This document shows, in pieces, positions 40,161-54,920 of a stretch of 64,000 nucleotides of DNA. The DNA comes from Planctomycetota bacterium. Its GTDB lineage: Bacteria > Planctomycetota > Brocadiia > CAIUPP01. The position numbers and the translations under genes are program-made. Within the stretch, counting starts at the first letter, position 1. Each line of letters begins with the position of its first letter. The stretch spans positions 43,971 through 107,970 of the forward strand of contig JAKJEM010000007.1 in assembly GCA_022705425.1 (NCBI GenBank). Reading direction: 5' to 3'. A model generated the notes under the pieces. It was not told the origin of the DNA and made no database searches. It saw only the letters and a program-made list of their open reading frames with translations.

Positions 40161-42167
40161 ATGAGCAGCGGAGTGATGGTGTGTCTCGATGAGTTGGCCA
40201 AAGGGGATCGGGCGCAATTGCTGGGACGGTTGACCAGCGCTCTTGCCAAGCTCAACTTTGACGTGCAAAGGACTGCTCAGACGCGCTCGTGGGAAAACGA
40301 ACTGGCATTTCTTCAGCAGGTCGCGCAAACCCTCATTCAGCACGACAGGGCCTTCGCAACGTGGCATCTGCTGCTCGAGTACGAGATTCCGCGTCGCCAG
40401 AAACGTCCGGACGGCATCCTTCTCGACAGCGACATCATCTTCGTCATTGAGTTCAAGCTTGGTGAGTCAAGAGGCAGTGCGGGCGAGCGCTGGCAGGCGG
40501 AGGAATACGCACTGGACCTTCGTGATTTTCATGCGGGCAGCAACGAGAGAACCATCGTCCCAATACTATGCGTGGCACGGCAGTCGAACCAGGAACCTCT
40601 TCCAGTGAGCAATCGCGCGCGAAGAGTCTGGCCCGTCAGCTCATGCAGCACGCAGTCCCTCGCGGAGCATATCATTGATCTCTACACGCGGGCCCACGAC
40701 CGTGCGGGTCGGACCATCGACCCGCACGCATGGCATGGGGCGCCATACCGACCAACGCTGACCATCATCGAGGCAGCGGAACAGCTGTTCGAAAATCACA
40801 ACGTTCAGGAGATCTCGCATAGCTATGCAAGCAACCTGACCGAAACAACAGACGCTCTCGTAGAGCATGTGCGGGAAGCCCAGCGACTGCGCGAGCGACG
40901 CATTTGCTTTGTCACCGGCGTTCCTGGTGCCGGAAAGACCCTGACCGGTTTGAATGCCGTCCATGACCCCGCCCTTCGAAAGGAAGGCCGTCCGCCGGCC
41001 GTCTTTCTTTCGGGTAACGGCCCTTTGGTGAAGGTCATTCGGGCGGCGCTGGTCCGCAATGCCCAACGGCAAGGGGCATCGCGAAGGGACGCGTCGCACC
41101 GTGTCGGAGCGTTCATTCAGAATGTTCATGCCTTCTTGCGACACTACACGGCGCACCAGAGCGAGCTGCCGTTGGAGCATGTTGTGGTGTTCGATGAAGC
41201 CCAGCGCGCATGGAACATGGAGAAGATGCTGAAGGTACACCAGATCAGTTTATCCGAGCCCGCCCTTGTCCTCGATGTCATGGAGCGTTGCCGTGAGTGG
41301 TGTGTGTTGATCGCGTTGGTCGGCGGTGGGCAGGAAATCCACGAAGGCGAGGCCGGCTTGGCGGAGTGGGGGCGTACCCTTTCTAGGCGGACGCAGCCGT
41401 GGGTAGTGGTCGCGCCTGACGAAGCCCTGATGGGGGGGAGTAGCGTTTCAGGTCATCGGCTGTTTGCGGATGGCGCTACCCAACAGGTTGCCGTGCAACG
41501 AGATGGGCGGCTGCACCTGGACGTTTCAACGCGTTCCTGGCGCGCACACCGCTTCAATGAATGGGTCAACCGCGTGCTGTCTGTTCAGCCTGTCGAAGCG
41601 CACGGTCTTGTGGCGAGTTTTGGCGAGTTCCCGGTGGTCCGGACTCGCAGCCTTGCTCAAGCGCGGGACTGGTTGCGCGCGCATAGTCGGCTCGAGGAAA
41701 AGCGACGTTGCGGTCTCGTGGCAAGTTCTGGTGCCCTAAGACTCAGAGCATACGGCATAGAGCTCTCAACAGCGTTCCGTCGCGGCTATTCCTTCGAGGA
41801 GTGGTTTCTTGCACCCCCGGAGGATGTGCGCTCAAGTTTTCAGCTCGAAGTGGCAGGCACGGAGTTCGAAGTGCAGGGACTTGAGTTGGACTGGGTCGGG
41901 TTGTGTTGGGGGAACGACCTCCACATTAGCGCGACCAAACAATGGGAATTCAGGCGTTTCACGGGGAAACGGTGGACCCATGTTCGAGATGACGCAAAGA
42001 AGCAGTTCATGCTGAACAAGTATCGTGTCCTTCTGACACGCGCGCGGCAGGGCGTGGTGCTTTGGGTGCCGTCGGGCATGGCGGAGGACCCCACCCTTGA
42101 TCCACGCGAGTTTGACGCGGTATACGAGTATCTGGGAGAGTGCGGAGTACCGGAGTTGCTGCCCTGA
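40161..42167 (+). CDS. Nuclease-helicase protein: PD-(D/E)XK-like N-terminus plus DUF2075 (SLFN group-3-type) helicase
   Basis: A 668-residue cytoplasmic protein. Residues ~45-130 carry RPDGILL and VIEFKLG (D84, E97, K99), the D...ExK core of PD-(D/E)XK nucleases. The helicase part has Walker A GVPGAGKT (253-260), Walker B VVVFDEAQ (DEAQ at 345-348) and a C-terminal NKYRVLLTRARQGVVLWVP motif VI, as in DUF2075/Schlafen group-3-like SF1 proteins. Members occur in phage-defence and mobile regions. G+C is visibly lower than in neighbours (TTT, AAT and GAA codons are common) and it is flanked by unusual non-coding DNA, suggesting transfer. ATG 40161 has GGGAG. Function is unproven. Confidence 0.75.
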   Translation: MSSGVMVCLDELAKGDRAQLLGRLTSALAKLNFDVQRTAQTRSWENELAFLQQVAQTLIQHDRAFATWHLLLEYEIPRRQKRPDGILLDSDIIFVIEFKLGESRGSAGERWQAEEYALDLRDFHAGSNERTIVPILCVARQSNQEPLPVSNRARRVWPVSSCSTQSLAEHIIDLYTRAHDRAGRTIDPHAWHGAPYRPTLTIIEAAEQLFENHNVQEISHSYASNLTETTDALVEHVREAQRLRERRICFVTGVPGAGKTLTGLNAVHDPALRKEGRPPAVFLSGNGPLVKVIRAALVRNAQRQGASRRDASHRVGAFIQNVHAFLRHYTAHQSELPLEHVVVFDEAQRAWNMEKMLKVHQISLSEPALVLDVMERCREWCVLIALVGGGQEIHEGEAGLAEWGRTLSRRTQPWVVVAPDEALMGGSSVSGHRLFADGATQQVAVQRDGRLHLDVSTRSWRAHRFNEWVNRVLSVQPVEAHGLVASFGEFPVVRTRSLAQARDWLRAHSRLEEKRRCGLVASSGALRLRAYGIELSTAFRRGYSFEEWFLAPPEDVRSSFQLEVAGTEFEVQGLELDWVGLCWGNDLHISATKQWEFRRFTGKRWTHVRDDAKKQFMLNKYRVLLTRARQGVVLWVPSGMAEDPTLDPREFDAVYEYLGECGVPELLP

Positions 42168-42653: not shown

Positions 42654-43910
42654 CTATGCTCCGGTCAGCGCGCTTCGCACGCCGTCCACCAGCCGGGCGA
42701 CCTCTGCCTCGCCGTGCGCCGCAGAGAGGAAGCAGGCCTCCAATGGCGAGGGGGCGAGCAGCACCCCCGCACCCAGCAGCCGCGCGAAGCACCGCTGAAA
42801 GCGCCGGCGGTCGGTGGCGCGCGCGGAGGACGCATCCGTGACGGGCCTCGCGGTGAAGAAGAGCGAGAACATGGAGCCCACCCGGTTGACCTGAAGGGCC
42901 GCCCCGGTCTCCCCTGCGGCGTCGCGCAGGTCCCGCTCCAGCCGCGCGCCGAGCGCCTCGAGGGCAGCCCACGGATCCAGCGCGAGGAGCGTTTCGATGG
43001 CCGCCAGTCCCGCCGCCACGACCACGGGATTCCCCGCCATCGTGCCGGCGTGGTACACGTCCCCCTCCGGCGCCAGGCGCGCCATGATCTCGCGCCGCCC
43101 GCCCACGGCCCCCGCCGGCAGTCCGCCACCGATGATCTTCCCGAAGATCGTCAGGTCGGGCCGAACGCCGTACCGTTCCTGGGCGCCGCCGCGCGCCACG
43201 CGGAAGCCGGTGATGACCTCGTCGAAGATCAACAGCGCGCCGAAACGGTCGCACAGGAGACGCAGTTCCTCCAGGAAGCCCGGCTGCGGCGGAACGACGC
43301 CGATATTGCCGAGGACAAGCTCGACCAGGGCGCAGGCCGGCGGGCCTCCGGGGGTGTCGAAGAAGGCCCGCGCGGAGGATGGGTCGTTGAAGCGCCCGAC
43401 GCGCAACGCCCCGGACAAGGCGGGCAGAAGCCCGGCGCTGGAGGTCAGGCCGGAACCGGGGCCGCCGAGCAGCGCGTCGCCGTGCCCGTGATAGGCGCCG
43501 TCGAACAGGAGGACGGCCTCCCGCCCGGTGCACGCGCGCGCCAGCCGCAGGGCCGTCATGGCAGCCTCAGTGCCCGAGGTGGTCATGCGAAGACGCTCCA
43601 CCGACGGGACGGCCTCCCGGATGAGCCGTGCCAGGCGGACCTCCCCCTCCGTGGTCAGCCCGAAGGCACTTCCGGCAGCCGCGGCGCGCCGCACGGCCTC
43701 CGTCACGGCGGGGTGGGCATGGCCGAGAATCACGGCGCCCCAGGCCATCAGGAAGTCGGCGTAGCGGCGGCCCTCCGTGTCCGTGATCCACGCGCCCTGC
43801 GCGCTGCGCGCGATGAGCGGGGGCGTCCCGGTGCTGCGGAAGGAGCGCGCGGGGCTGTTGACGCCGCCGGCCAGGACCTCCTGCGCCTCCGCCGTCAGGT
43901 CTCGATCCAT
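42654..43910 (-). CDS. hemL: Glutamate-1-semialdehyde 2,1-aminomutase
   Basis: A 418-residue PLP enzyme that turns glutamate-1-semialdehyde into 5-aminolevulinate. Marks include GGVNSPARSF, the TTSGTEAAMTALRLARA helix, FDGAYHGHGD, LLIFDEVITGFRV (Asp that holds PLP) and TIFGKIIGGGLPAGA with K258 as the Schiff-base lysine. MAGNPV and a normal C-terminus complete it. It overlaps hemB by 16 bases (43895-43910), so translation is probably coupled. It is the last gene of the sulfur/siroheme set and supplies the substrate for HemB directly upstream. Confidence 0.95.
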   Translation of the reverse strand: MDRDLTAEAQEVLAGGVNSPARSFRSTGTPPLIARSAQGAWITDTEGRRYADFLMAWGAVILGHAHPAVTEAVRRAAAAGSAFGLTTEGEVRLARLIREAVPSVERLRMTTSGTEAAMTALRLARACTGREAVLLFDGAYHGHGDALLGGPGSGLTSSAGLLPALSGALRVGRFNDPSSARAFFDTPGGPPACALVELVLGNIGVVPPQPGFLEELRLLCDRFGALLIFDEVITGFRVARGGAQERYGVRPDLTIFGKIIGGGLPAGAVGGRREIMARLAPEGDVYHAGTMAGNPVVVAAGLAAIETLLALDPWAALEALGARLERDLRDAAGETGAALQVNRVGSMFSLFFTARPVTDASSARATDRRRFQRCFARLLGAGVLLAPSPLEACFLSAAHGEAEVARLVDGVRSALTGA

Positions 43911-44866
43911 CGGGCGACCTCCTCGGCGTAGTAGGTGATGACGGCGTCGGCCCCGGCGCGCTTGATAGCCGTCACCGCTTCGAGGACGGCCGGGCGCTCG
44001 GCAAAGGCCCCGGCCTGCGCCGCGCGCTTGAGCATGGCGTATTCGCCGCTGACCTGGTAGGCCATCAGCGGCAGGCGCGTCGCCTCGCGCAGCCGCGCCA
44101 GGATATCCAGGCAGGGCAGGGCCGGCTTCACCATCAGCCAGTCCGCCCCCTCGGCTTCATCCAGAAGGGCGTCGCGCAGCGCGGCGCGCCCGTTGGCCGG
44201 GTCAAGCTGATACGCCTGCCGGTCGCCGGACTGCGGGGCGGAGTGCGCCGCGTCGCGAAAGGGTCCGTAGAAGACGGAAGCGAACTTCGCCGCGTAGGCC
44301 AGGACGGCCGTTTCGGCGAAGCCGGCCTGATCGAGCGCGCCGCGCACAGCGGCAACCTGACCGTCCATCATCGCCGAGGGCGCCACCACGTCCGCCCCGG
44401 CGGCGGCGTGTGCTGCGGCCATGGCGCCGAGCGCCTTCAGCGTGGGGTCGTTCGCCACCGCCCCGGCGCCATCGAGGAGGCCGCAATGTCCGTGGCGGGT
44501 CCAGGCGCAGAGACATACGTCGGTGATGACGGGCAGATGCGGCGCGGCTTGCTTCACGGCGCGTACCGCGCGCGGAACAAGGCCCTCCGGGTCGGCGGCG
44601 ACGCGCCCGTCGGCGTCCTTGTCGCCGGCCTCCGGCACGCCGAAGATCAGGAGCGCGCCGACCTTCAATGCCGCCGCGCGCGCGGCCAGCAGGTCGCACG
44701 ACATCCGCTCGACGCCGGGCAGGGCCGCCACCGCCTCGCGCCGGTTCGCGCCCTCGACCACAAAGACGGGCAGGACCAGATCCTTCGGCGAGAGGGTCGT
44801 CTCGCGCGCCAGGCGGCGGAGTCCCTCCGTCCGGCGGAGCCGTCTCGATCTCGATGCCGGAAACAT
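43895..44866 (-). CDS. hemB: Porphobilinogen synthase
   Basis: A 323-residue cytoplasmic enzyme joining two 5-aminolevulinates into porphobilinogen. It has RRTEGLRRLARETTLSPKDL at the start, a zinc-type cysteine cluster in TDVCLCAWTRHGHCG (C118, C120, C128), the YAAKFASVFYGPFRDAAHSAP block (K194) and WLMVKPALPCLDIL with the second active-site lysine K247. ATG 44866 follows the upstream stop by one base (TAG-T-ATG) and has GGAGGGAGG upstream. Placed between the uroporphyrinogen-forming fusion genes and hemL. Confidence 0.96.
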   Translation of the reverse strand: MFPASRSRRLRRTEGLRRLARETTLSPKDLVLPVFVVEGANRREAVAALPGVERMSCDLLAARAAALKVGALLIFGVPEAGDKDADGRVAADPEGLVPRAVRAVKQAAPHLPVITDVCLCAWTRHGHCGLLDGAGAVANDPTLKALGAMAAAHAAAGADVVAPSAMMDGQVAAVRGALDQAGFAETAVLAYAAKFASVFYGPFRDAAHSAPQSGDRQAYQLDPANGRAALRDALLDEAEGADWLMVKPALPCLDILARLREATRLPLMAYQVSGEYAMLKRAAQAGAFAERPAVLEAVTAIKRAGADAVITYYAEEVARWIET

Positions 44867-44867
44867 A

Positions 44868-46286
44868 CTATCCTCCCTCCTGAGCCGCCTGTCCGGGCGC
44901 CTCGACGATACGCGCGCCCGCAACGCCGGCGGCGTCCAACGTGCGCCGGGTGGCTTGGCCGATGCACCACGCCTCCCGCGCAAACGCCCCCTCCCCGTAA
45001 GCCGCGCTGAAGGCGCGCACGCCGGAGGGGCTGAGAAAGAAGACGACGTCGTGCCCAGGCAGGGGGCGGCCCAGCGCGGGGTTGGGAACCACGCGATGCA
45101 GCGCGAGGCGGACGACCTCCGCCCCCTCCTGGAGCAACCTCGACTCGAGGTCGCGCGGGGCGTGAGTGCCCTGCACCAGCAGGATGCGCCGGCCCTTCAT
45201 TGCGCCCACGGCGGCCAGAATCCCCTCCGAGCCGCCGGGCTGTCCCGTCGCGTCGGCCCGCAGTCCATAGTCCCGCAAACGAAGGGCCGTTCCGCCGCCG
45301 GCCGCGATGATCCGCGCCCCCGCCAGCGCGCGCGCGTCCGCGCACGCCCCTTCGATGGCGGCCATCAAGGAGACGACGCCGACCCGGCTGGTGAAGATGA
45401 CGTCCTGGAAGCGCCCCGCGCGCAGTCCGGCGACGACACCCGGCGCGCGCGCAAGGCCCGCAGGATCGGGTTCGACGACCAGTGCGGGCCAATGCAGGAT
45501 GCGCCCCAGCGCGCGGAAGTTCGTCGGATCAAGCCCGGTGAAGAGGATCGTCGGGCGATGCCCCTCGCCAATGCGGTCCTCCGCCGCCCGCCCCACGACC
45601 AGCAGCGCGGGAGAGGACGCCCCGACCGCGCGAGCGGCGGACGCGATTCCTTCCAGCCGGGCGCGCGTCTCGCGTTCCCATGGCAGGCCGGCACGTTCGA
45701 TCAGCGCGCAGGGGGTCTGCGGGGGCCATCCCTCCGCCTGAAGGCGCGTCGTGGCATTTTCGATCGCGCCGACGGCCATGAAGAGCACCAGGGTGTCGGC
45801 GCGCGGAAAGGAGGCCGCCTGCACGCCGCCGGACTCGACCGCCGTGGCAAAGGCGAAGGACCGCGCGCGCCCGCGCCGCGTCAGCGCCAGTCCCGCCCCC
45901 GCAGGCCCGGCCAGACCGGCGCTGATGCCGGGGATCACCTCGCAGGGCGTGCTGCGCGCCGCCAGGAAGTCCGCCTCCTCGAAGCCGCGCCCGAAGACGA
46001 AGGGATCGCCGCTCTTGACGCGCGCGACGGTCCGGCCCTCGGCGGCGAGACGGGCCAGGCGTTCGTTGATCGCCCCCTGTTCGGCGTCGTGACGCCGGGG
46101 AAGGCGAATGACCTCCTTGCCCGCCAGGGAGAGGCCCGCGTCGTCGAAGAAGTCCTCGGGGAGCAGGTCGTCCACCAGGAGGATTTCGGCCTCGCGCAGC
46201 GCGCGAAGAGCGCGCAGGGTCAGCAGATCCGCCGCGCCCGGTCCCGCGCCGATCAGATAGACCTTTCCGGACTGCGGCGCGCTCAT
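44868..46286 (-). CDS. Fused uroporphyrinogen-III C-methyltransferase / uroporphyrinogen-III synthase
   Basis: A 472-residue two-domain protein. Residues 1-~240 are a CobA/SUMT methyltransferase: VYLIGAGPGAADLLTLRA, ARVKSGDPFVFGRG (usual form KGGDPF; here Lys-Ser-Gly), EVIPGISAGLAGPAGAGLALT and a LVLFMAVG segment. It adds two SAM methyl groups to give precorrin-2. Residues ~245-465 are a HemD-type uroporphyrinogen-III synthase (LFTGLDPTNF, VIFTSRVGVVSLMAAI, GRRILLVQG, VVFFLSPSGVRAF, CIGQATRRTLDAAGV). CobA-HemD fusions are known in several phyla. The ATGA overlap with the SirC-HemA-HemC gene suggests coupled translation. Confidence 0.92.
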   Translation of the reverse strand: MSAPQSGKVYLIGAGPGAADLLTLRALRALREAEILLVDDLLPEDFFDDAGLSLAGKEVIRLPRRHDAEQGAINERLARLAAEGRTVARVKSGDPFVFGRGFEEADFLAARSTPCEVIPGISAGLAGPAGAGLALTRRGRARSFAFATAVESGGVQAASFPRADTLVLFMAVGAIENATTRLQAEGWPPQTPCALIERAGLPWERETRARLEGIASAARAVGASSPALLVVGRAAEDRIGEGHRPTILFTGLDPTNFRALGRILHWPALVVEPDPAGLARAPGVVAGLRAGRFQDVIFTSRVGVVSLMAAIEGACADARALAGARIIAAGGGTALRLRDYGLRADATGQPGGSEGILAAVGAMKGRRILLVQGTHAPRDLESRLLQEGAEVVRLALHRVVPNPALGRPLPGHDVVFFLSPSGVRAFSAAYGEGAFAREAWCIGQATRRTLDAAGVAGARIVEAPGQAAQEGG

Positions 46287-48334
46287 GGACGGGCTCTCCC
46301 AAGATCCAGGGGGGCGAGGCCTTCGAGGAGATCGGCTCGGTCGCGGCGGACCACCAACGCCAGCGCCCCCTGGGCGGGCTCAGGCGGAAACTCCTGCGGC
46401 GAAAAGACTTGCGCAATCCGGCCTTCAAGCCGGAGGCGCAGCAGTCCGGCCGCGGCCAGGATGAGTCCATCGTAAGCGCCCTCATCGAGCCGGCGAATCC
46501 GGTCGGGGACGTTGCCGCGGATATCCGTCGGGACAAGATCGGGGCGCAGTTCGCGCAGACGCTGCGCGCGGCGCACGGAGGACGTGCCGATCCGCGCGCC
46601 GGGGGGCAGTGTGTCGAGTCCGCCGCCGCCGCGCGTGACCAGGCACTCCCACGGCGCAAAGGACGGCGTCTGCGCAGCGACGACCAGGTCCTCGCCGAAT
46701 TGGCGGGGCAGATCCTTGGCACTGTGGAGCCCGGCGTCCACCACGCCGCTCCGGACGGCCTCGTCAATGTCGCGCGTGAAAAAGTCCTCCGCCGTCACCG
46801 CCGGGAGGGGGGTTGCCTTGTCGCGGTCGCCGGGTGCGTCGAGCGCGACGAACTCGACGGCGGTCTCCGGCTGAAGGGCCGCAAGGAAGCCGCGCATCTC
46901 CGCGACCTGGGCCATCGAAAGAGCGCTGCGTCGCGCGCCGACCCGCAGCGCAGGCGGCAGCCCGGCAACCGGGCCCGCCCCGGCGACCCATCGGAGCGTC
47001 TCCGCAAAGGCCGCCCGTTCAGCGGCGGCCAGCCGCGCCGCTTCGGAGGGGATCGGCGGGCCGTCGGCAAAGGATTCGAGGCCTTCATAGGCCGCGCACC
47101 GGGGACGGAGCGCCGCGTTGACGTCGGCAAGGTCCAGGACCGGGGCCGAGGGAGGCAGTGCAAAGACAAGATCGTCCGCCTCCGCCGGCGTCAGGCGTCC
47201 GCCGAGCACGGCCGCCGATACCCCGCGCGCGCCCTCGCGCAGCCGGCGCCACGGCAGGACGCGCCAGCCGCGCGACGCACACCAGGGAATCTCCGCCCGG
47301 TGCGAGAAGGGAATCGCCTCCGCCCCGCCGGCAGCCAGCCGGTCGGCCACGGCGGCGTTCAGTCGTCCGCAACCCAGCAACGCCACACGGCATCCGCGCA
47401 GACCCCCAAGGCGTAGCTCCAGCCGCGTCACGACCGCCGCCGCCCAACTCCGGTCGGCGCCGAGGCCGCTGGCGAGCCGCACGGCGGCCTGCGCCCGGAG
47501 CGCCGCCGCGACCAGGCCCGACAGCCCCGGACTCAGCCGCCGCCGCTGCCGGACCAGGGCCTCGCGGAGCTGCTCGGCCACGTCCGCTTCGCCCCGCAGA
47601 GGCGAATCGAGTCCCACGGCGACGCGCACCAGGTGATGAAAGACCGCCGGACCGACCTGGTCGGGGCGCGGCATTTCGGCGCTGGACTCCGCCGGGTTCT
47701 CGCGCAGAGCATAGGTCTCACGGCGACGGCACGTGACCAGGAGAAAGGGAGGGTACTCCGCCTCCGGCGCGGCGGAATGGGGACAGGGCGCTTCCGCCCC
47801 TTCCTCGGCGGGCGCGCGGAAGAGCGCCGGGACCGGGGGCGCAGGGCGCGCATCCAGAACCTGCGCGATCCGGTCGCGCAGCGAGCGAGACCGCGCGCAA
47901 CGGCGTCCGTCGGAGTGAACGGCCACCGTGAGGCCGTCGCGGCGATGGATGGCGGGGAAGATGACCGACGATGAGCGGCCCGAGGAGGCAATGCAGAAGA
48001 GCAACCCTCGCGCGGAGGCCTCCTGCCCGATTTGCAGGTTGAGCGCGGCGTTGTCGGTGGCCGCGACCACCAGCCGAATGCCGTCGAGGTGGTCGGCGGC
48101 ATAGCGCGCGCGACGCCACCGGAACGCGCCGTTCCGAGCCGCCTGCGCGGCGGCCGGGCCGAGTTCGGGAGAGACCAGCGTCACCCGCGCGCCGGCCGAC
48201 GCGAGCGTGGCGGCCTTGCGGGCGCCGACTCGCCCCCCTCCGACGACGAGGCATTCCCAGCCGGTCAGGTCCAGTCCCAGGGGCAGGTAGTGCCGCGCGC
48301 CGCCGGGCTCGGGGGTCGGCGCTACTGAAGCCAT
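46283..48334 (-). CDS. Three-part fusion: SirC/Met8-type dehydrogenase - short glutamyl-tRNA reductase - HemC without its cofactor domain
   Basis: A 683-residue protein. Residues 1-~165 are a precorrin-2 dehydrogenase (VVGGGRVGARKA at 30-41; AATDNA with D94 at the CysG/Met8 catalytic Asp position). Residues ~195-455 are a glutamyl-tRNA reductase: LLVTCRRRETYAL keeps the catalytic Cys (C202; family TCNRxE), GLDSPLRGEADVAEQL matches GLDSMVxGE, and VALLGCGRLNAAVA binds NADPH; the first ~40 residues and most of the dimer helix are missing. Residues ~463-683 are HemC domains 1-2 (LHSAKDLP with D541; GTSSVRRAQRL; DIRGNV; PAQGALAL) and the protein then ends, with no domain 3 or dipyrromethane Cys. 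ATGA overlaps lie at both ends. Confidence 0.88.
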   Translation of the reverse strand: MASVAPTPEPGGARHYLPLGLDLTGWECLVVGGGRVGARKAATLASAGARVTLVSPELGPAAAQAARNGAFRWRRARYAADHLDGIRLVVAATDNAALNLQIGQEASARGLLFCIASSGRSSSVIFPAIHRRDGLTVAVHSDGRRCARSRSLRDRIAQVLDARPAPPVPALFRAPAEEGAEAPCPHSAAPEAEYPPFLLVTCRRRETYALRENPAESSAEMPRPDQVGPAVFHHLVRVAVGLDSPLRGEADVAEQLREALVRQRRRLSPGLSGLVAAALRAQAAVRLASGLGADRSWAAAVVTRLELRLGGLRGCRVALLGCGRLNAAVADRLAAGGAEAIPFSHRAEIPWCASRGWRVLPWRRLREGARGVSAAVLGGRLTPAEADDLVFALPPSAPVLDLADVNAALRPRCAAYEGLESFADGPPIPSEAARLAAAERAAFAETLRWVAGAGPVAGLPPALRVGARRSALSMAQVAEMRGFLAALQPETAVEFVALDAPGDRDKATPLPAVTAEDFFTRDIDEAVRSGVVDAGLHSAKDLPRQFGEDLVVAAQTPSFAPWECLVTRGGGGLDTLPPGARIGTSSVRRAQRLRELRPDLVPTDIRGNVPDRIRRLDEGAYDGLILAAAGLLRLRLEGRIAQVFSPQEFPPEPAQGALALVVRRDRADLLEGLAPLDLGRARP

Positions 48335-49764
48335 CAGAGCGCCCACCCTTCGACGCGGCCGATCTCCGCCGGCAACTCCTCCGTCCGCGTGAGCGCCCAA
48401 TCGGCGAAGGAAAGGTCCTCCTGTCCGACGCGCGACCGGTACCGTTCCGCCAGCATCCGCACAACGCCGGGGATGACCGCCGCGTCTATGCCGGGATGGA
48501 TCTCGCGCGCGAGGCGGGCGTCCCGTCCACCGCCGCCCCCGACCAGAAGCCGGAAGCAGGGGCGTCGCGCTCCGGCAATCGTACGGACGCACCCGGCCAG
48601 GCCGATGGCCCCCACCGAGGACTGGGCGCACCCGTTGGGGCAACCCGACACGGCCACCAGGCCGCCGAAGTCGCTCCCCAAGGCGCGGTCCATCGCGGCG
48701 ACCGGCTCGTGAGTGTCCACGATCGCCCGGCCGCACCAGGCCGAACCGGGGCAGGCGACAATCGCCGGCGCGCCCTCCCGCGCGGCCAACGCCGGCGGCA
48801 GTGTCAGGCCGTTTCCACCGAAGAGAAACAGGTCATGCTCGAATCCGACGCGAAGACTCGCACCGGCCTTCTCCACCGCGCGCCCCAGCTCAAGGGCGTC
48901 GAGGATCGCGATATTTCCGAGACGCGGGCGCAGGCGGACCTGTCGGGGCGAAGCGCCCGTGACGCGCCGCAGGGGCGGCGCCGGATCACCTCGCGCCACC
49001 CGCTCTTCGTCGAAGAGCGCCGTCAGGCGCGCGACGAACTCCGCATCGCCCAGCCGTTCGCGGACGTGGCGCAGGCGCGCGCGTCCCCGGTTGACGCGGT
49101 CCCCCTCGGCATTGAAGAGGCGCAGCGCCGCACGCGCCAGGGGCGCGACCTCTGCGGCGGCGAAGACGCGTTCGAGGGCGAGGCCCGTCGCGGGGCGCGG
49201 GCCGAGCGAGCCCGCCACGACGGCCGCGAAGCCGCCTTCCGTCCGGGCGATCAGGCCCAAGTCGTTGATCCAGGGGAGGGCGCAGGCCTTCGGGCACGCC
49301 GAGAGACTCACTTTGAACTTCCGCGGCAGCGCGCGGATCATCGCCATCCCCTCGGCGGCGCGCGTGATGGCCTCCGCCGCCGGGGCCACGTCCACCGTGC
49401 CCTCGCAGAGGGCATTGCCGGGGCAGAGGGTTACGTTGCGCAAGGTGTCGCCGCAGGCGCGCACCGTGCTGAGCCCTGCGGCGTAGAGGTCGCGCTGCAA
49501 GGCGGGGATGCGCTCCGGCGGCACGCCGTGGATTTCGATGTCCTGCCGCGTGGTCAGGTGCAGGGGGTAGCCCGGCGCATGGCGAGCGGAGGCCTCCGCC
49601 ACCGCCCGCCACTGCGCCGCCGAGATGACCCCTCCGGGAATGCGGACGCGCTGCATGAACAACCCGCTCTGCCGCTGCGGATAGAGCCCCAGCAACCGCG
49701 CCTGAGCCCCTTCCGAGGGCAGGGCGTCGCAGGGAAAACGAATCGTTCCGCCGGAATCGCTCAC
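48334..49764 (-). CDS. Sulfite (or nitrite) reductase, siroheme [4Fe-4S] type
   Basis: A 476-residue cytoplasmic enzyme of the siroheme reductase family. The first half has LHLTTRQDIEIHG (siroheme-binding Arg), GDTLRNVTLCPG and LPRKFKVSLSACPKAC. The second half has ACPGSAWCGRAIVDT and VSGCPNGCAQSSVGAIGL, giving C338, C344, C375 and C379 in the CX5C...CX3C cluster pattern. The first half also holds a CX5C (114-120) and a CX3C (157-161) set. GTG 49764 is chosen as start because AGGGAGG lies just before it. The APS reductase upstream and the siroheme genes downstream favour sulfite as substrate; nitrite cannot be excluded. Confidence 0.9.
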   Translation of the reverse strand: MSDSGGTIRFPCDALPSEGAQARLLGLYPQRQSGLFMQRVRIPGGVISAAQWRAVAEASARHAPGYPLHLTTRQDIEIHGVPPERIPALQRDLYAAGLSTVRACGDTLRNVTLCPGNALCEGTVDVAPAAEAITRAAEGMAMIRALPRKFKVSLSACPKACALPWINDLGLIARTEGGFAAVVAGSLGPRPATGLALERVFAAAEVAPLARAALRLFNAEGDRVNRGRARLRHVRERLGDAEFVARLTALFDEERVARGDPAPPLRRVTGASPRQVRLRPRLGNIAILDALELGRAVEKAGASLRVGFEHDLFLFGGNGLTLPPALAAREGAPAIVACPGSAWCGRAIVDTHEPVAAMDRALGSDFGGLVAVSGCPNGCAQSSVGAIGLAGCVRTIAGARRPCFRLLVGGGGGRDARLAREIHPGIDAAVIPGVVRMLAERYRSRVGQEDLSFADWALTRTEELPAEIGRVEGWAL

Positions 49765-49810
49765 CGCATCCTCCCTGACCCGCGCCCTGCCCGCACGCCG
49801 TGGATTCCCG

Positions 49811-50545
49811 TCACAGCCGCACCGGCGCGCCGACACCGCCGGACACCTTGAGCGGGCGGGTATGGATGCCGCATTCGCCGCCGCACTTGCTGGTGCCGAT
49901 CCATCGCCCGGCGCGCTCGTCGGGACCGTTGGCAATCCGCGTGCACGGCGAGCATCCTAGCGACCGGTAGCCTTCCTTGTAAAGGGGATTGACGGGAACC
50001 TCGTAGCAGGCCAGGTACTGCCAGACCTCGCGCTCGTACCAGATGAGGATCGGGTTGAGCTTGAGGAGTCCGGCGTCGCGCTCCTCAACCTCCTGGAAAT
50101 CCGTTCGCGTGCGACCCTCGGTGCAGCGCAGGCCGGTCACCCAGCACGCTACGCCCATTTCCTCGATGGCGCGCCGCGTCGGCTGAACCTTCAGAGCGTC
50201 GCAGCAACGGTCCGGGTCCGTGGCGTAGAGGCGGTCGGGGATCGGTTCGTCGTTGCGGAAGACGCGCGTCTCGGGGTAGCGTTCCACAAGACGGCGCATG
50301 AAGGCCACCGTCTCCGGCGGCTTGAAGCGCGTCGTCACCACGAACCCGCGAATCGCGGGGCTGACCCGCTTGGCCAGGTCCCAGACGACGCAGGAATCCT
50401 TCCCCAGGCTGTTCGCCACCACGAGCCCGTCGCCGTACTCCCGGTGGGCGTCGCGGATCAGCTCCAGCGAGCGCTCCACCTTCTGCCTGAAGTTCAACCC
50501 GTCCACCAACGACTTCACGTCCACTTCCGCCCGCGCGACAGGCAT
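49811..50545 (-). CDS. cysH: Assimilatory APS reductase (CysH type, [4Fe-4S])
   Basis: A 244-residue cytoplasmic enzyme reducing adenylylsulfate to sulfite. It has the SLGKDS P-loop (46-51), CCDALKVQP (C114-C115), YRSLGCSPCT (C198, C201) and the catalytic KCGGECGIH (C225). The CC...CxxC set ligates an iron-sulfur cluster, which marks the APS-reducing branch rather than the PAPS branch, so no APS kinase would be needed. AAGGAGA precedes ATG 50545. Next gene in the set: sulfite reductase, 46 bases downstream. Confidence 0.95.
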   Translation of the reverse strand: MPVARAEVDVKSLVDGLNFRQKVERSLELIRDAHREYGDGLVVANSLGKDSCVVWDLAKRVSPAIRGFVVTTRFKPPETVAFMRRLVERYPETRVFRNDEPIPDRLYATDPDRCCDALKVQPTRRAIEEMGVACWVTGLRCTEGRTRTDFQEVEERDAGLLKLNPILIWYEREVWQYLACYEVPVNPLYKEGYRSLGCSPCTRIANGPDERAGRWIGTSKCGGECGIHTRPLKVSGGVGAPVRL

Positions 50546-50560: not shown

Positions 50561-50878
50561 CTAGATCTCGTAATCCGTGTCGGCCACGGTGAACTCGCGT
50601 TCCTGCAGGAACTGGCGAATGATCTTGTGATCCTCCTCGCTCAAGTCCGGCCGCACCACATAGTGCGACAGGGGGTGACGGATTCGCCCCCATTCGACCC
50701 GCTCCCACAGGCGCTCGTGCCAGTAGTACATCACCAGGCGAATGCCGTGGAAGAGCAGGGTTATTCCCGTCGTGGCGGCCAGGTCGCGCGTGAAGGCATA
50801 ACTGATGGCGCCGAGGATGACGACCCCGGCTATGCGCCAGGTGAGCGACTTGGCAATGGAGCGTCTTCGGGTGTCCAC
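50561..50878 (-). CDS. DUF2061 membrane protein
   Basis: A 105-residue protein with KSLTWRIAGVVILGAISYAFTRDLAATTGITLLFHGIRLVMYYWHERLWERV, the DUF2061 core: two membrane helices, basic start and the family's YYxHERLW signature. DUF2061 genes are often linked to, or fused with, sulfate-assimilation proteins, and here it lies 15 bases before cysH. Start is GTG 50878 with AGGTGA upstream. A role in sulfate uptake or sensing is possible but not shown. Confidence 0.85.
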   Translation of the reverse strand: MDTRRRSIAKSLTWRIAGVVILGAISYAFTRDLAATTGITLLFHGIRLVMYYWHERLWERVEWGRIRHPLSHYVVRPDLSEEDHKIIRQFLQEREFTVADTDYEI

Positions 50879-51912: not shown

Positions 51913-51935
51913 GGAATTCCCGGGAGAGGTGCGTC

Positions 51936-54920
51936 ATGTCTTCGCGTGTTCCGATGGCGGGTGATGTGTTGCATGGTTTTGCCGTTCAGGCGGCGGTCCC
52001 GGTTCCGGCGCTCAGGGGGACGGCCTTTCTGGCGGAGCACGCGCGCTCGGGGGCGCGGGTGCTCCACTTGGCCAACGCCGATTCGGAGAACCTCTTCTCG
52101 GTGTCCTTTCCGACGCCGCCGGCGGACGATACGGGGCTGCCGCACATCATGGAGCACGCGGCGCTGGGCGGGTCGCGCCGCTTTCCGGTGAAGGAGCCCT
52201 TCTTCGAGATGGTCAAGATGAGCATGGCCACCTTCATCAACGCGATGACGGCATCGGACCACACGATGTACCCGGTGTCGAGCAATGTCCGGCGGGACCT
52301 GTTCAACCTGGCGGAGGTCTATTTCGACGCGGTCTTCCATCCGGAGTTGAAGGAACAGACCTTCCAGCGCGAGGGCTGGCACTGGGCGCTGGAACGCCCC
52401 GAGGACCCCTCTTCGGCCTTGCAGGTCAAGGGAATCGTGTACAGCGAGATGAAGGGGGTGTACTCGACGCCGGACGGGTTGCTGTGGCGGCACTGCCAGC
52501 ACGGGTTGTTCCCGGACACGCCGCTGGGGCGCGATTCGGGGGGAGACCCGGCGGCCATCCCGCAGTTGACGTACGAGCAGTTACTGGCATTTCACCGGCG
52601 GTTCTACCATCCGTCGAACGCGCACTTCTTCCTTTACGGCGACATCCCGACGGCGGACTACCTCGCCTTCCTGGACGAACGGCTGGCAGGGTTCGAGCGG
52701 ACGGCGGCGGCGGCGGCGTGTCCGCGCCAGCGGCGCTGGGACAAACCGCGCCGCGCGCAGCTTCCCTATCCGGTGGGGGCGGGAGAGTCCCCGGCAGGCA
52801 AGAGCTACCTCGCCATCGCATGGGCGCTGGGCGAGGCGGCGGACGCGGAAGAACTGACGGCGTGGGAGGTGATCTCCTCGCTGCTGCTGGGCCATGAAGC
52901 GGCGCCGCTGAAGAAGGCGATCATTGACTCGAAGCTGGGCGCGGACCTGTTGCCCTCGGGATCGTACGAGATCGGCCCGGAGCGGGTCTTCTTCGTGGGG
53001 TTGAAGGGAAGCGAGGCGGAGCGCGGCGAGGCGCTGCTGGCACTGGTGCGGCGGACGCTGGCGGAAACGGCGGAGCGCGGGATCACGCCGGAGCGGGTGG
53101 ACCGGGCGCTGCAGCAGTTGGCATACCGCCACCTGGAGATTGCGCCGCTGTTCCCCCTGCGGGTGATGGAGAGCGTCAATCAGGCGTGGCTCTGCGGAAA
53201 GGAGCCGACGCTGCTGCTGCAGATGGGCGAGCATCTGGCGGCGTGCCGGAGACGGTACGACGCGGACGCGGCGTTCTTCTCGCGGCGGATTCGCACGGGG
53301 CTGCTGGAGAACGCGCACCGGCTGGAGCTGGCCCTGGTTCCCGACGCGACAATGGCGGCGCGCGAGGAGGCGGCCTTTGCGGAGGCGATGCGCGCGCGCA
53401 AGGCGCAGTTCAGCGCGGCGGCGCTGGCGGAGATCGGGCGGAACGCGGCCGAGATCGAGCGTCTTAACAGCGAGCCGAATCCCCCCGAAGCCCTGGCGAC
53501 GCTGCCGCAGTTGCAGGTGAAGGACCTGCCGCCGACGCCGCGGCACATTCCGACGACCGCGGAACGGGTGGGCGACGGGTTGACGCTGCTGCGCAATGAC
53601 GTCTTCAGCAACGGCGTGTGCTATCTGGACATTGACGTGGCGCTGGACGATCTGCCGGAGGAGTTGTATCCCCTGGTGCCGCATTACGAGGGGGCCTTCG
53701 CCAAGCTGGGGGCGGCGGGCCAGCCCTTCACGCGCGTAGCGGAGCGGCGGGCGGCCTCCACGGGCGGGCTTCGCGCGAGCTTTGCCATCCTGTCGCACGC
53801 GCTGTCGGCCGATGACCGTTCGCCACGGCTGCGCTTCAGCCTCAAGACGCTCGACGACCGGATGGAGGAGGCGTTGTCGGTGCTTCGGGACCTGGTCTTT
53901 GGCCTGGACCCGCGCGACGACGCGCGCGAGCGCGACGTGTTGCGCCAATACCACGCAGCCACGCGGGCGCGGCTGCTCAACGGCGGCACAGCCCCGGCCA
54001 CAGCGCACGCGCGGCGGGGGCTGACGCCGGAGGGCCACGTGAGGCACGTGATGGATGGACTCCCCGCGCTGGAGCGCGCCACGCGGCTGGCGGAGGAGTA
54101 CGCCCGGCGCGGGCCCGATCTGCTGGCGGGGATCGAACGCATACGGGACCTGGCGCTGCGGCGGGGGCGCTGGACGGCCTCCTTCACCGGGTCCGACAAG
54201 GCGGGCGAGCGGGTGCGACGCGCCCTGGGCGACTGGGCGCAGGCGCTGCATCCGGCAACGCCCGGCGGAGGAAAGGGCGTGCCCTTCCCGGGACGCAAGC
54301 CGCCAACGCGCGAAGGACTGGCGGCGCCGATCCAGGTGGCACACTGCGCGCGGGTGATGCCCGCGCCGCACCGGTCGCACCCGGACGCGCCGCTGCTGCG
54401 GATCGGGGCGCACCTGGCGCGGTTCGACTACTTCCTGACGGAGATTCGCCTGAAGGGGAGCGCCTACGGGGCGTGGTGCGTGTACGACGGCGGCGGCGGC
54501 ACCTTCGAGATGGGGTCCTTCTCCGATCCGAAGCCGGGCCGCACGGTGCAGGTCTTCGAGGGCTTCGGGGAGTTCTTGCGCCGGGTCGAGTGGACGCAGA
54601 CGGACGTGGACCGGGCGATTATCGGCGCGCTGAAGGAGGCGGAGCAGCCGATCCGCCCCGGCGACGCGACGCACACGGCGCTCGACCGGTTCCTTGCGGG
54701 AGAGACGCGGGAAGTCCGCGAGGCGCGCTACGCGGCGGCGCTGCGAGCCACGCCGCGCGAGGTGAAGCGGGCGCTCCTGGAACAGTGGGAGCGGAACGCG
54801 GCGGAATCGCGCGTCTGCGTTCTGGCGAGCCGCGAGGCGATCGAATCGGCCAACCGCGAGCTGTGCGGACGCGAGTTGGCGGTCGAGGAGATCCGGTTCC
54901 TCGATACACCCAAGGGATGA
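51936..54920 (+). CDS. M16C (PreP/Cym1-like) zinc metalloprotease
   Basis: A 994-residue protease, the usual length for presequence-protease-type M16C enzymes that form one chain of four domains. The inverted zinc site is HIMEH (H70, E73, H74). Nearby are the MTASDHTMYPVSS segment and the SEMKGVYSTPD helix that supplies the third ligand region (Glu). Also typical are LTYEQLLAFHRRFYHPSNAHFFLYGDI and LKGSAYGAWCVYDGGGGTFEMGSFSDPK near the end. It degrades peptides of moderate length in a closed chamber. No signal peptide is visible, so it is probably cytoplasmic. GGGAGAGG precedes ATG 51936. Confidence 0.92.
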   Translation: MSSRVPMAGDVLHGFAVQAAVPVPALRGTAFLAEHARSGARVLHLANADSENLFSVSFPTPPADDTGLPHIMEHAALGGSRRFPVKEPFFEMVKMSMATFINAMTASDHTMYPVSSNVRRDLFNLAEVYFDAVFHPELKEQTFQREGWHWALERPEDPSSALQVKGIVYSEMKGVYSTPDGLLWRHCQHGLFPDTPLGRDSGGDPAAIPQLTYEQLLAFHRRFYHPSNAHFFLYGDIPTADYLAFLDERLAGFERTAAAAACPRQRRWDKPRRAQLPYPVGAGESPAGKSYLAIAWALGEAADAEELTAWEVISSLLLGHEAAPLKKAIIDSKLGADLLPSGSYEIGPERVFFVGLKGSEAERGEALLALVRRTLAETAERGITPERVDRALQQLAYRHLEIAPLFPLRVMESVNQAWLCGKEPTLLLQMGEHLAACRRRYDADAAFFSRRIRTGLLENAHRLELALVPDATMAAREEAAFAEAMRARKAQFSAAALAEIGRNAAEIERLNSEPNPPEALATLPQLQVKDLPPTPRHIPTTAERVGDGLTLLRNDVFSNGVCYLDIDVALDDLPEELYPLVPHYEGAFAKLGAAGQPFTRVAERRAASTGGLRASFAILSHALSADDRSPRLRFSLKTLDDRMEEALSVLRDLVFGLDPRDDARERDVLRQYHAATRARLLNGGTAPATAHARRGLTPEGHVRHVMDGLPALERATRLAEEYARRGPDLLAGIERIRDLALRRGRWTASFTGSDKAGERVRRALGDWAQALHPATPGGGKGVPFPGRKPPTREGLAAPIQVAHCARVMPAPHRSHPDAPLLRIGAHLARFDYFLTEIRLKGSAYGAWCVYDGGGGTFEMGSFSDPKPGRTVQVFEGFGEFLRRVEWTQTDVDRAIIGALKEAEQPIRPGDATHTALDRFLAGETREVREARYAAALRATPREVKRALLEQWERNAAESRVCVLASREAIESANRELCGRELAVEEIRFLDTPKG

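Follow-up and report, generated by a model that had tools for sequence, protein, structure and literature searches.

Hydroxymethylbilane synthase (HMBS, HemC) builds the tetrapyrrole chain of heme, chlorophyll, B12, and siroheme, and it does so from a primer of its own making, held covalently on domain 3 and regarded as essential. In the normal enzyme, the dipyrromethane primer is carried by C242 of domain 3 (PMC3945110, PMC7242693), and in Escherichia coli the hinge between domains 1 and 3 is formed by residues 218-221 (PMC3945110). Here, we analyze a gene in a 64,000-nucleotide stretch of a Planctomycetota genome (the window; contig JAKJEM010000007.1, positions 43,971 to 107,970) in which precorrin-2 dehydrogenase (SirC), a shortened glutamyl-tRNA reductase (GluTR), and domains 1 and 2 of HMBS are joined in one chain of 683 residues. 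The HemC module resembles E. coli HMBS (1PDA/1YPN) in the fold of domains 1 and 2 (218 columns at ~1.4-2.6 Å, 35% identity) and in the catalytic aspartate, lysine, and arginine set, but it differs in lacking domain 3 and C242, in having lost R101 and the K59/GG lid loop, and in its position behind SirC and GluTR. Literature searches, incomplete in their coverage, turned up no description of a SirC-GluTR-HemC fusion or of a domain-3-less HMBS. Sequence comparison shows that the fusion HMBS is conserved and lacks domain 3, and it is probably active. If so, the domain 3 anchor, universal in textbooks, would be dispensable. A conserved, single-copy enzyme without domain 3 would make the role of the covalent anchor and of the domain itself testable, and with it whether the chain can be started, counted, and released when both are missing.

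The fusion chain and its ends

The fusion gene occupies 46283-48334 on the minus strand, stop codon included, and its modules were delimited by Pfam and a structural model. The SirC module (residues 16-166; 47837-48289, minus strand) matches PF13241 and CysG-like folds, the shortened GluTR module (residues 197-453; 46976-47746, minus strand) matches part of PF05201 and, by profile, the GluTR structures 1gpj and 4n7r, and the HemC module (residues 463-683; 46286-46948, minus strand) comprises domains 1 and 2 only. Pfam assigned NAD_binding_7 to residues 21-128, GlutR_N to residues 197-286 (profile positions 40-148 of 151), and Porphobil_deam (PF01379) to residues 463-669 (profile positions 1-205 of 207; 188.9 bits), and neither Porphobil_deamC (PF03900) nor GlutR_dimer was matched anywhere in the 683 residues. 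An earlier note, made from the DNA letters, had proposed this three-module architecture with C202 and D541 retained, and both parts stand: the GluTR nucleophile Cys202 is encoded at 47729-47731 and the catalytic Asp541, equivalent to E. coli D84, at 46712-46714 (both minus strand).

The same note placed the end of the chain directly after a QGAL segment. The chain in fact extends ~26 residues beyond this segment and takes in the final strand (residues 658-663 in the model) and helix (667-676) of domain 1. Its C terminus, LAPLDLGRARP, closes domain 1 at the hinge to domain 3 (E. coli 218-221). Thus, domain 3 has been cleanly removed. Both ends of the gene are fixed by overlaps with the neighbors on either side: a TGATG overlap with the upstream sulfite reductase gene at the 5' end and, as had been noted before, an ATGA overlap with the downstream cobA-hemD at the 3' end. 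An AlphaFold model of the fusion, built on an alignment of 27 sequences, had a mean pLDDT of 82.5, with most blocks of the HemC module above 90. When HMBS structures were compared with the model by Foldseek, E. coli 1ypn aligned over 218 columns at a root mean square deviation of 1.4 Å, and the match was confined to the domain 1-2 body.

Distribution and conservation

The source genome (4.35 Mb, 288 contigs, 92% complete) contains a single HemC match (PF01379) and a single GluTR N-terminal domain, and both are the fusion. PF03900 had no match at E<=10 in any reading frame of this genome, and the same profile searches gave the expected matches in control genomes. The earlier note held that homologues with a normal domain 3 would overturn the missing domain. 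Full-length homologues were found in six other genomes, three from the source genome's own class, G016 (47% identity), G006, and G010, and three more from its phylum, G084, G169, and G374. At 35 to 47% identity and spread, with the source genome, across three classes, all six end likewise without domain 3, and all seven fusions terminate within a few residues of a common L.PLDLG motif. Moreover, none of the seven fusion genomes, all of them draft assemblies in hundreds of contigs, gave a PF03900 match at E<=10, and the relatives thus show the same ending with no separate domain-3 protein. We conclude that the domain-3-less ending is real and conserved and is not an artefact.

Among 75 genomes of the class, only the four fusion genomes combined a complete HemC body with the absence of domain 3. 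One further genome (G049) had a HemC fragment of 24 positions and nothing more, and every other genome in which hemC was more than fragmentary also had PF03900. All genomes at hand from two further classes held no fusions beyond those already known. A scan of viral contigs gave no relative of the fusion, a scan of genome contigs gave two alphaproteobacterial HemC matches, neither of them a fusion, and tblastn against plasmids gave no record covering 80% of the fusion, the matches listed being to the HemC module only. The pathway is patchily distributed, as G001, the only other genome of the source family at hand, had no HemC match.

Residues of the HemC module are given in E. coli numbering, based on a sequence that agrees with the PDB chain over residues 5-219. 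All seven fusions share R11, D46, F62, K83, D84, S129, R131, R132, R149, R155, R176, and Q198, the residues that take part in pyrrole binding or activation in E. coli, and Q19, H80, and T127 are conserved in all seven as well; S13 is glycine in G374. The changes fall at positions that would point toward domain 3 or the lid. R101, invariant in 35 normal HemCs, is serine, threonine, or alanine in every fusion, and the human equivalent, R116, forms a salt bridge with the domain-3 residue E250 (PMC10577081). The active-site lid motif GGKGLF has likewise become xxxDFF. Selection on the fusion is purifying, with dN/dS between G084 and G169 of 0.19-0.23 for the whole chain and 0.26-0.30 for the HemC module alone; the G006/G010 pair was saturated. 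In a tree of 43 HemC bodies, the seven fusion modules formed one clade (100/100) on a long stem, separate from all domain-3-bearing HemCs including that of E. coli, in a tree with several long branches, and G016 was sister to G006 plus G010 (82/91). The general HemC profile TIGR00212 still recognizes the fusion from the window, at 199.9 bits against a cut-off of 164.

Where the primer could be held

We propose that the fusion has three activities in a dedicated siroheme pathway, carrying out the GluTR, HMBS, and precorrin-2 dehydrogenase steps with HemL, HemB, and CobA-HemD of the same operon as its partners. The HMBS module would be active as a two-lobed domain 1-2 body alone, which would bind, activate, and couple porphobilinogen at D541 in a cleft lined, as usual, with arginines. 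Instead of sitting on a domain 3 loop, the dipyrromethane primer would stay inside this cleft, most likely by a thioether bond to a newly gained cysteine beside an active-site acid, either Cys564 or, in the branch of G016, G006, and G010, a cysteine at position 45. We give this explanation as a whole a probability of roughly 0.45, and its parts differ in strength. That a real HMBS works here without domain 3 is very probable, and it is likely that these proteins represent an HMBS lineage using domains 1 and 2 only, with dipyrromethane either linked as a thioether to a cysteine newly placed in the cleft or not covalently bound at all. If the module is active, the odds that a cysteine anchors the primer are about even.

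The lead for a relocated anchor comes from two positions. Cysteine occurs at position 107 in 6/7 fusions and at position 45 in 3/7, such that each fusion has at least one of them, and neither occurs in any of the 35 normal HemCs. Cys564 (position 107; codon 46643-46645, minus strand) is the sole cysteine of the HemC module in the window, and the position-45 cysteine, which belongs to the G016/G006/G010 branch, is the sole one in G016, where position 107 is alanine. Position 107 comes directly after D106, whose human counterpart D121 pairs with R149/R150. Position 45 comes directly before D46, whose human counterpart D61 pairs with R26/K27 (PMC10577081). We consider these cysteines the best, if unproven, candidates. 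Several points weigh against them, however. No one cysteine is invariant across the seven HemC modules. Position 107 is valine or alanine in normal enzymes and lies in a strand where it is probably buried, and its cysteine may be a mere conservative substitution in the core. The primer cysteine of domain 3 is essential in normal HMBS, human Cys261 being intolerant of mutation (PMC10577081). Finally, seven sequences from one clade amount to few independent events. A cysteine at the C terminus was also considered and rejected, as it is present only in G006 and G010.

The main rival to the cysteine anchor is an active HMBS with no covalent primer, in which dipyrromethane, hydroxymethylbilane, or porphobilinogen would lie in the arginine cleft of domains 1 and 2 as a dissociable or renewable starter, possibly trapped by a neighboring module. 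The retention of every pyrrole-binding residue of domains 1 and 2 is consistent with such a starter, as are the lack of an invariant cysteine and the rewritten lid loop, which suggests an altered cleft. A non-covalent starter nevertheless seems less likely to us; it leaves unexplained why a new cysteine stands at one or the other active-site-adjacent position in all seven fusions, and to our knowledge no HMBS has a non-covalent primer. Alternatively, the primer might be held in trans or on another module, with a cysteine of SirC or GluTR, a dimer partner, or an unrecognized protein taking the place of domain 3. Fusion to two modules could bring a foreign loop over the cleft, and C28, C114, C146, and C202 are invariant in all seven chains. 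C202 is the GluTR nucleophile, however, and Cys146 of the SirC module (codon 47897-47899, minus strand) is disfavored because its equivalent is shared by a SirC-GluTR fusion in another genome, G207, where HemC is separate and has domain 3. Moreover, PF03900 is absent from all fusion genomes, two domains fill the CobA-HemD chain and leave none spare in which domain 3 might hide, and comparison of the operons of the fusion genomes found no common unknown gene. We regard a holder outside the HemC module as quite improbable. A location for the primer elsewhere in the HemC module is preferred, as a candidate only, and CobA-HemD or a second protein, which the earlier note had offered, found no support.

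That note had also allowed for an inactive HemC module. The module would then be regulatory or vestigial, and uroporphyrinogen III would be imported or come from another route. The chain does lack a domain regarded as essential, and its other two modules, SirC and GluTR, are shortened too. Inactivity is nevertheless improbable because the catalytic residues are invariant, dN/dS is ~0.2, and the module has been retained across a deep clade; moreover, it is the only HemC in the genome, and hemL, hemB, and cobA-hemD share its operon. An artefact of assembly, sequencing, or gene prediction, such as the error near 46310 that had been raised as a way to restore domain 3, might be entertained for seven drafts each in hundreds of contigs. 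The same ending is conserved in seven assemblies, however, and the error is ruled out on that ground; with six frames of each genome devoid of domain 3 and an ATGA overlap into the next gene, the chance of an artefact is negligible. The cysteine-held primer in an active domain 1-2 body remains the reading that we prefer.

Operon context and related systems

The operon in the window lies on the minus strand and has the order hemL, hemB, cobA-hemD, fusion, siroheme sulfite/nitrite reductase, PAPS reductase. HemL, glutamate-1-semialdehyde aminomutase (42654-43910), was assigned by PF00202 and operon position, and HemB, porphobilinogen synthase (43895-44866), by PF00490, with a start that we chose within a mechanical open reading frame of 43895-44983. 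The 472-residue CobA-HemD fusion (44868-46286; PF00590 and PF02602) overlaps the SirC-GluTR-HemC gene by ATGA, and on the other side the stop of the siroheme sulfite/nitrite reductase-like gene (48334-49935; PF01077 and PF03460) overlaps the fusion start. A PAPS/APS reductase (49811-50545; PF01507) and, by Pfam, a DUF2061 membrane protein (50561-50878) follow. No HemE above the cut-off and no CbiX were found in the seven fusion genomes, all drafts. We infer that the operon is a dedicated siroheme pathway serving assimilatory sulfate reduction. The route from glutamyl-tRNA to sirohydrochlorin would then be packed into four proteins, which may be of use for engineering.

Related loci carry similar genes, some assigned by eye from translations. 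G016 has hemL, hemB, cobA-hemD, the fusion, and a PAPS-reductase-like gene, all by eye; G374 has PAPS reductase, sulfite reductase, the fusion, cobA-hemD, hemB, and methionine/cysteine synthesis genes, some by eye; and G084 has the fusion, cobA-hemD, hemB, hemL, and a sulfhydrylase-like gene, again some by eye. In G006 and G010, a gene that by eye resembles cysteine synthase lies immediately upstream of the fusion. An open reading frame of 111 residues similar to the DUF2061 protein of the window, a likeness seen without a profile scan, adjoins the fusion in G374 (L063 6363-6698). A plasmid of the clostridial species Peptoclostridium acidaminophilum (L070) has the same gene set in nearly the same order, hemA-sirC-hemC-cobA/hemD-hemB-hemL, but there the genes are separate, with a HemC of 304 residues and a HemA of 420.

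The first two modules have counterparts of their own. The SirC NAD-binding Rossmann module (PF13241) is present in all seven fusions, each with serine at the CysG D104 position (Ser117 in the window; 47984-47986, minus strand), such that the DAPK loop aspartate of bifunctional Met8p/CysG-B is lost, and cysteine at the CysG P133 position (Cys146). SirC of Bacillus megaterium, a monofunctional precorrin-2 dehydrogenase, also has serine at the D104 position (PMC7018833), but the fusion module differs from it in the cysteine at P133, in being fused, and in missing the helical C-terminal part. The GluTR module consists of the catalytic domain, with its N-terminal part missing, and the NADPH domain; C202, in a TC(N/R)RxE motif, is invariant in 7/7 fusions, and the dimerization domain (PF00745) is found in none. 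In G169 (L062:7032-9170), the histidine before the LLRV motif of GluTR reads glutamine (HQLLRV, as against HHLLRV in its close relative G084). The 482-residue SirC-GluTR fusion of G207 (L064:2467-3915) resembles the first two modules, with a GluTR likewise lacking the dimerization domain, cysteine at the P133 position, and CobA-HemD adjoining, but it has no HemC module, and a domain-3-bearing HemC is encoded elsewhere in that genome. It is a plausible intermediate to the three-module fusion. The adjoining CobA-HemD (L064:3912-5669) has ~98 extra N-terminal residues before the methylase domain.

An apparent precedent for a short HemC is the NCBIfam profile NF002202 (PRK01066), which has 241 positions and stops just past the domain 1-2 body, too early to include domain 3. 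The fusions match its positions 20-234 at 151-170 bits, below the curated cut-off of 251. On the general HemC profile they score 199-211 bits, whereas normal bodies score 254-292 on the general profile and 110-151 on NF002202; the fusions thus do relatively better on the short profile than normal HemCs do. NF002202 appears to be chlamydial, and if so, a domain-3-less HemC would not be unique to that clade. A parallel short GluTR profile, NF001909, has 338 positions; both profiles may be chlamydial, and this pair of domains may have been lost repeatedly.

Outside the pathway genes, a Schlafen group 3-type helicase protein of 668 residues adjoins the operon (40161-42167 of the window), and a PreP-like M16C metallopeptidase is encoded at 51921-54920.

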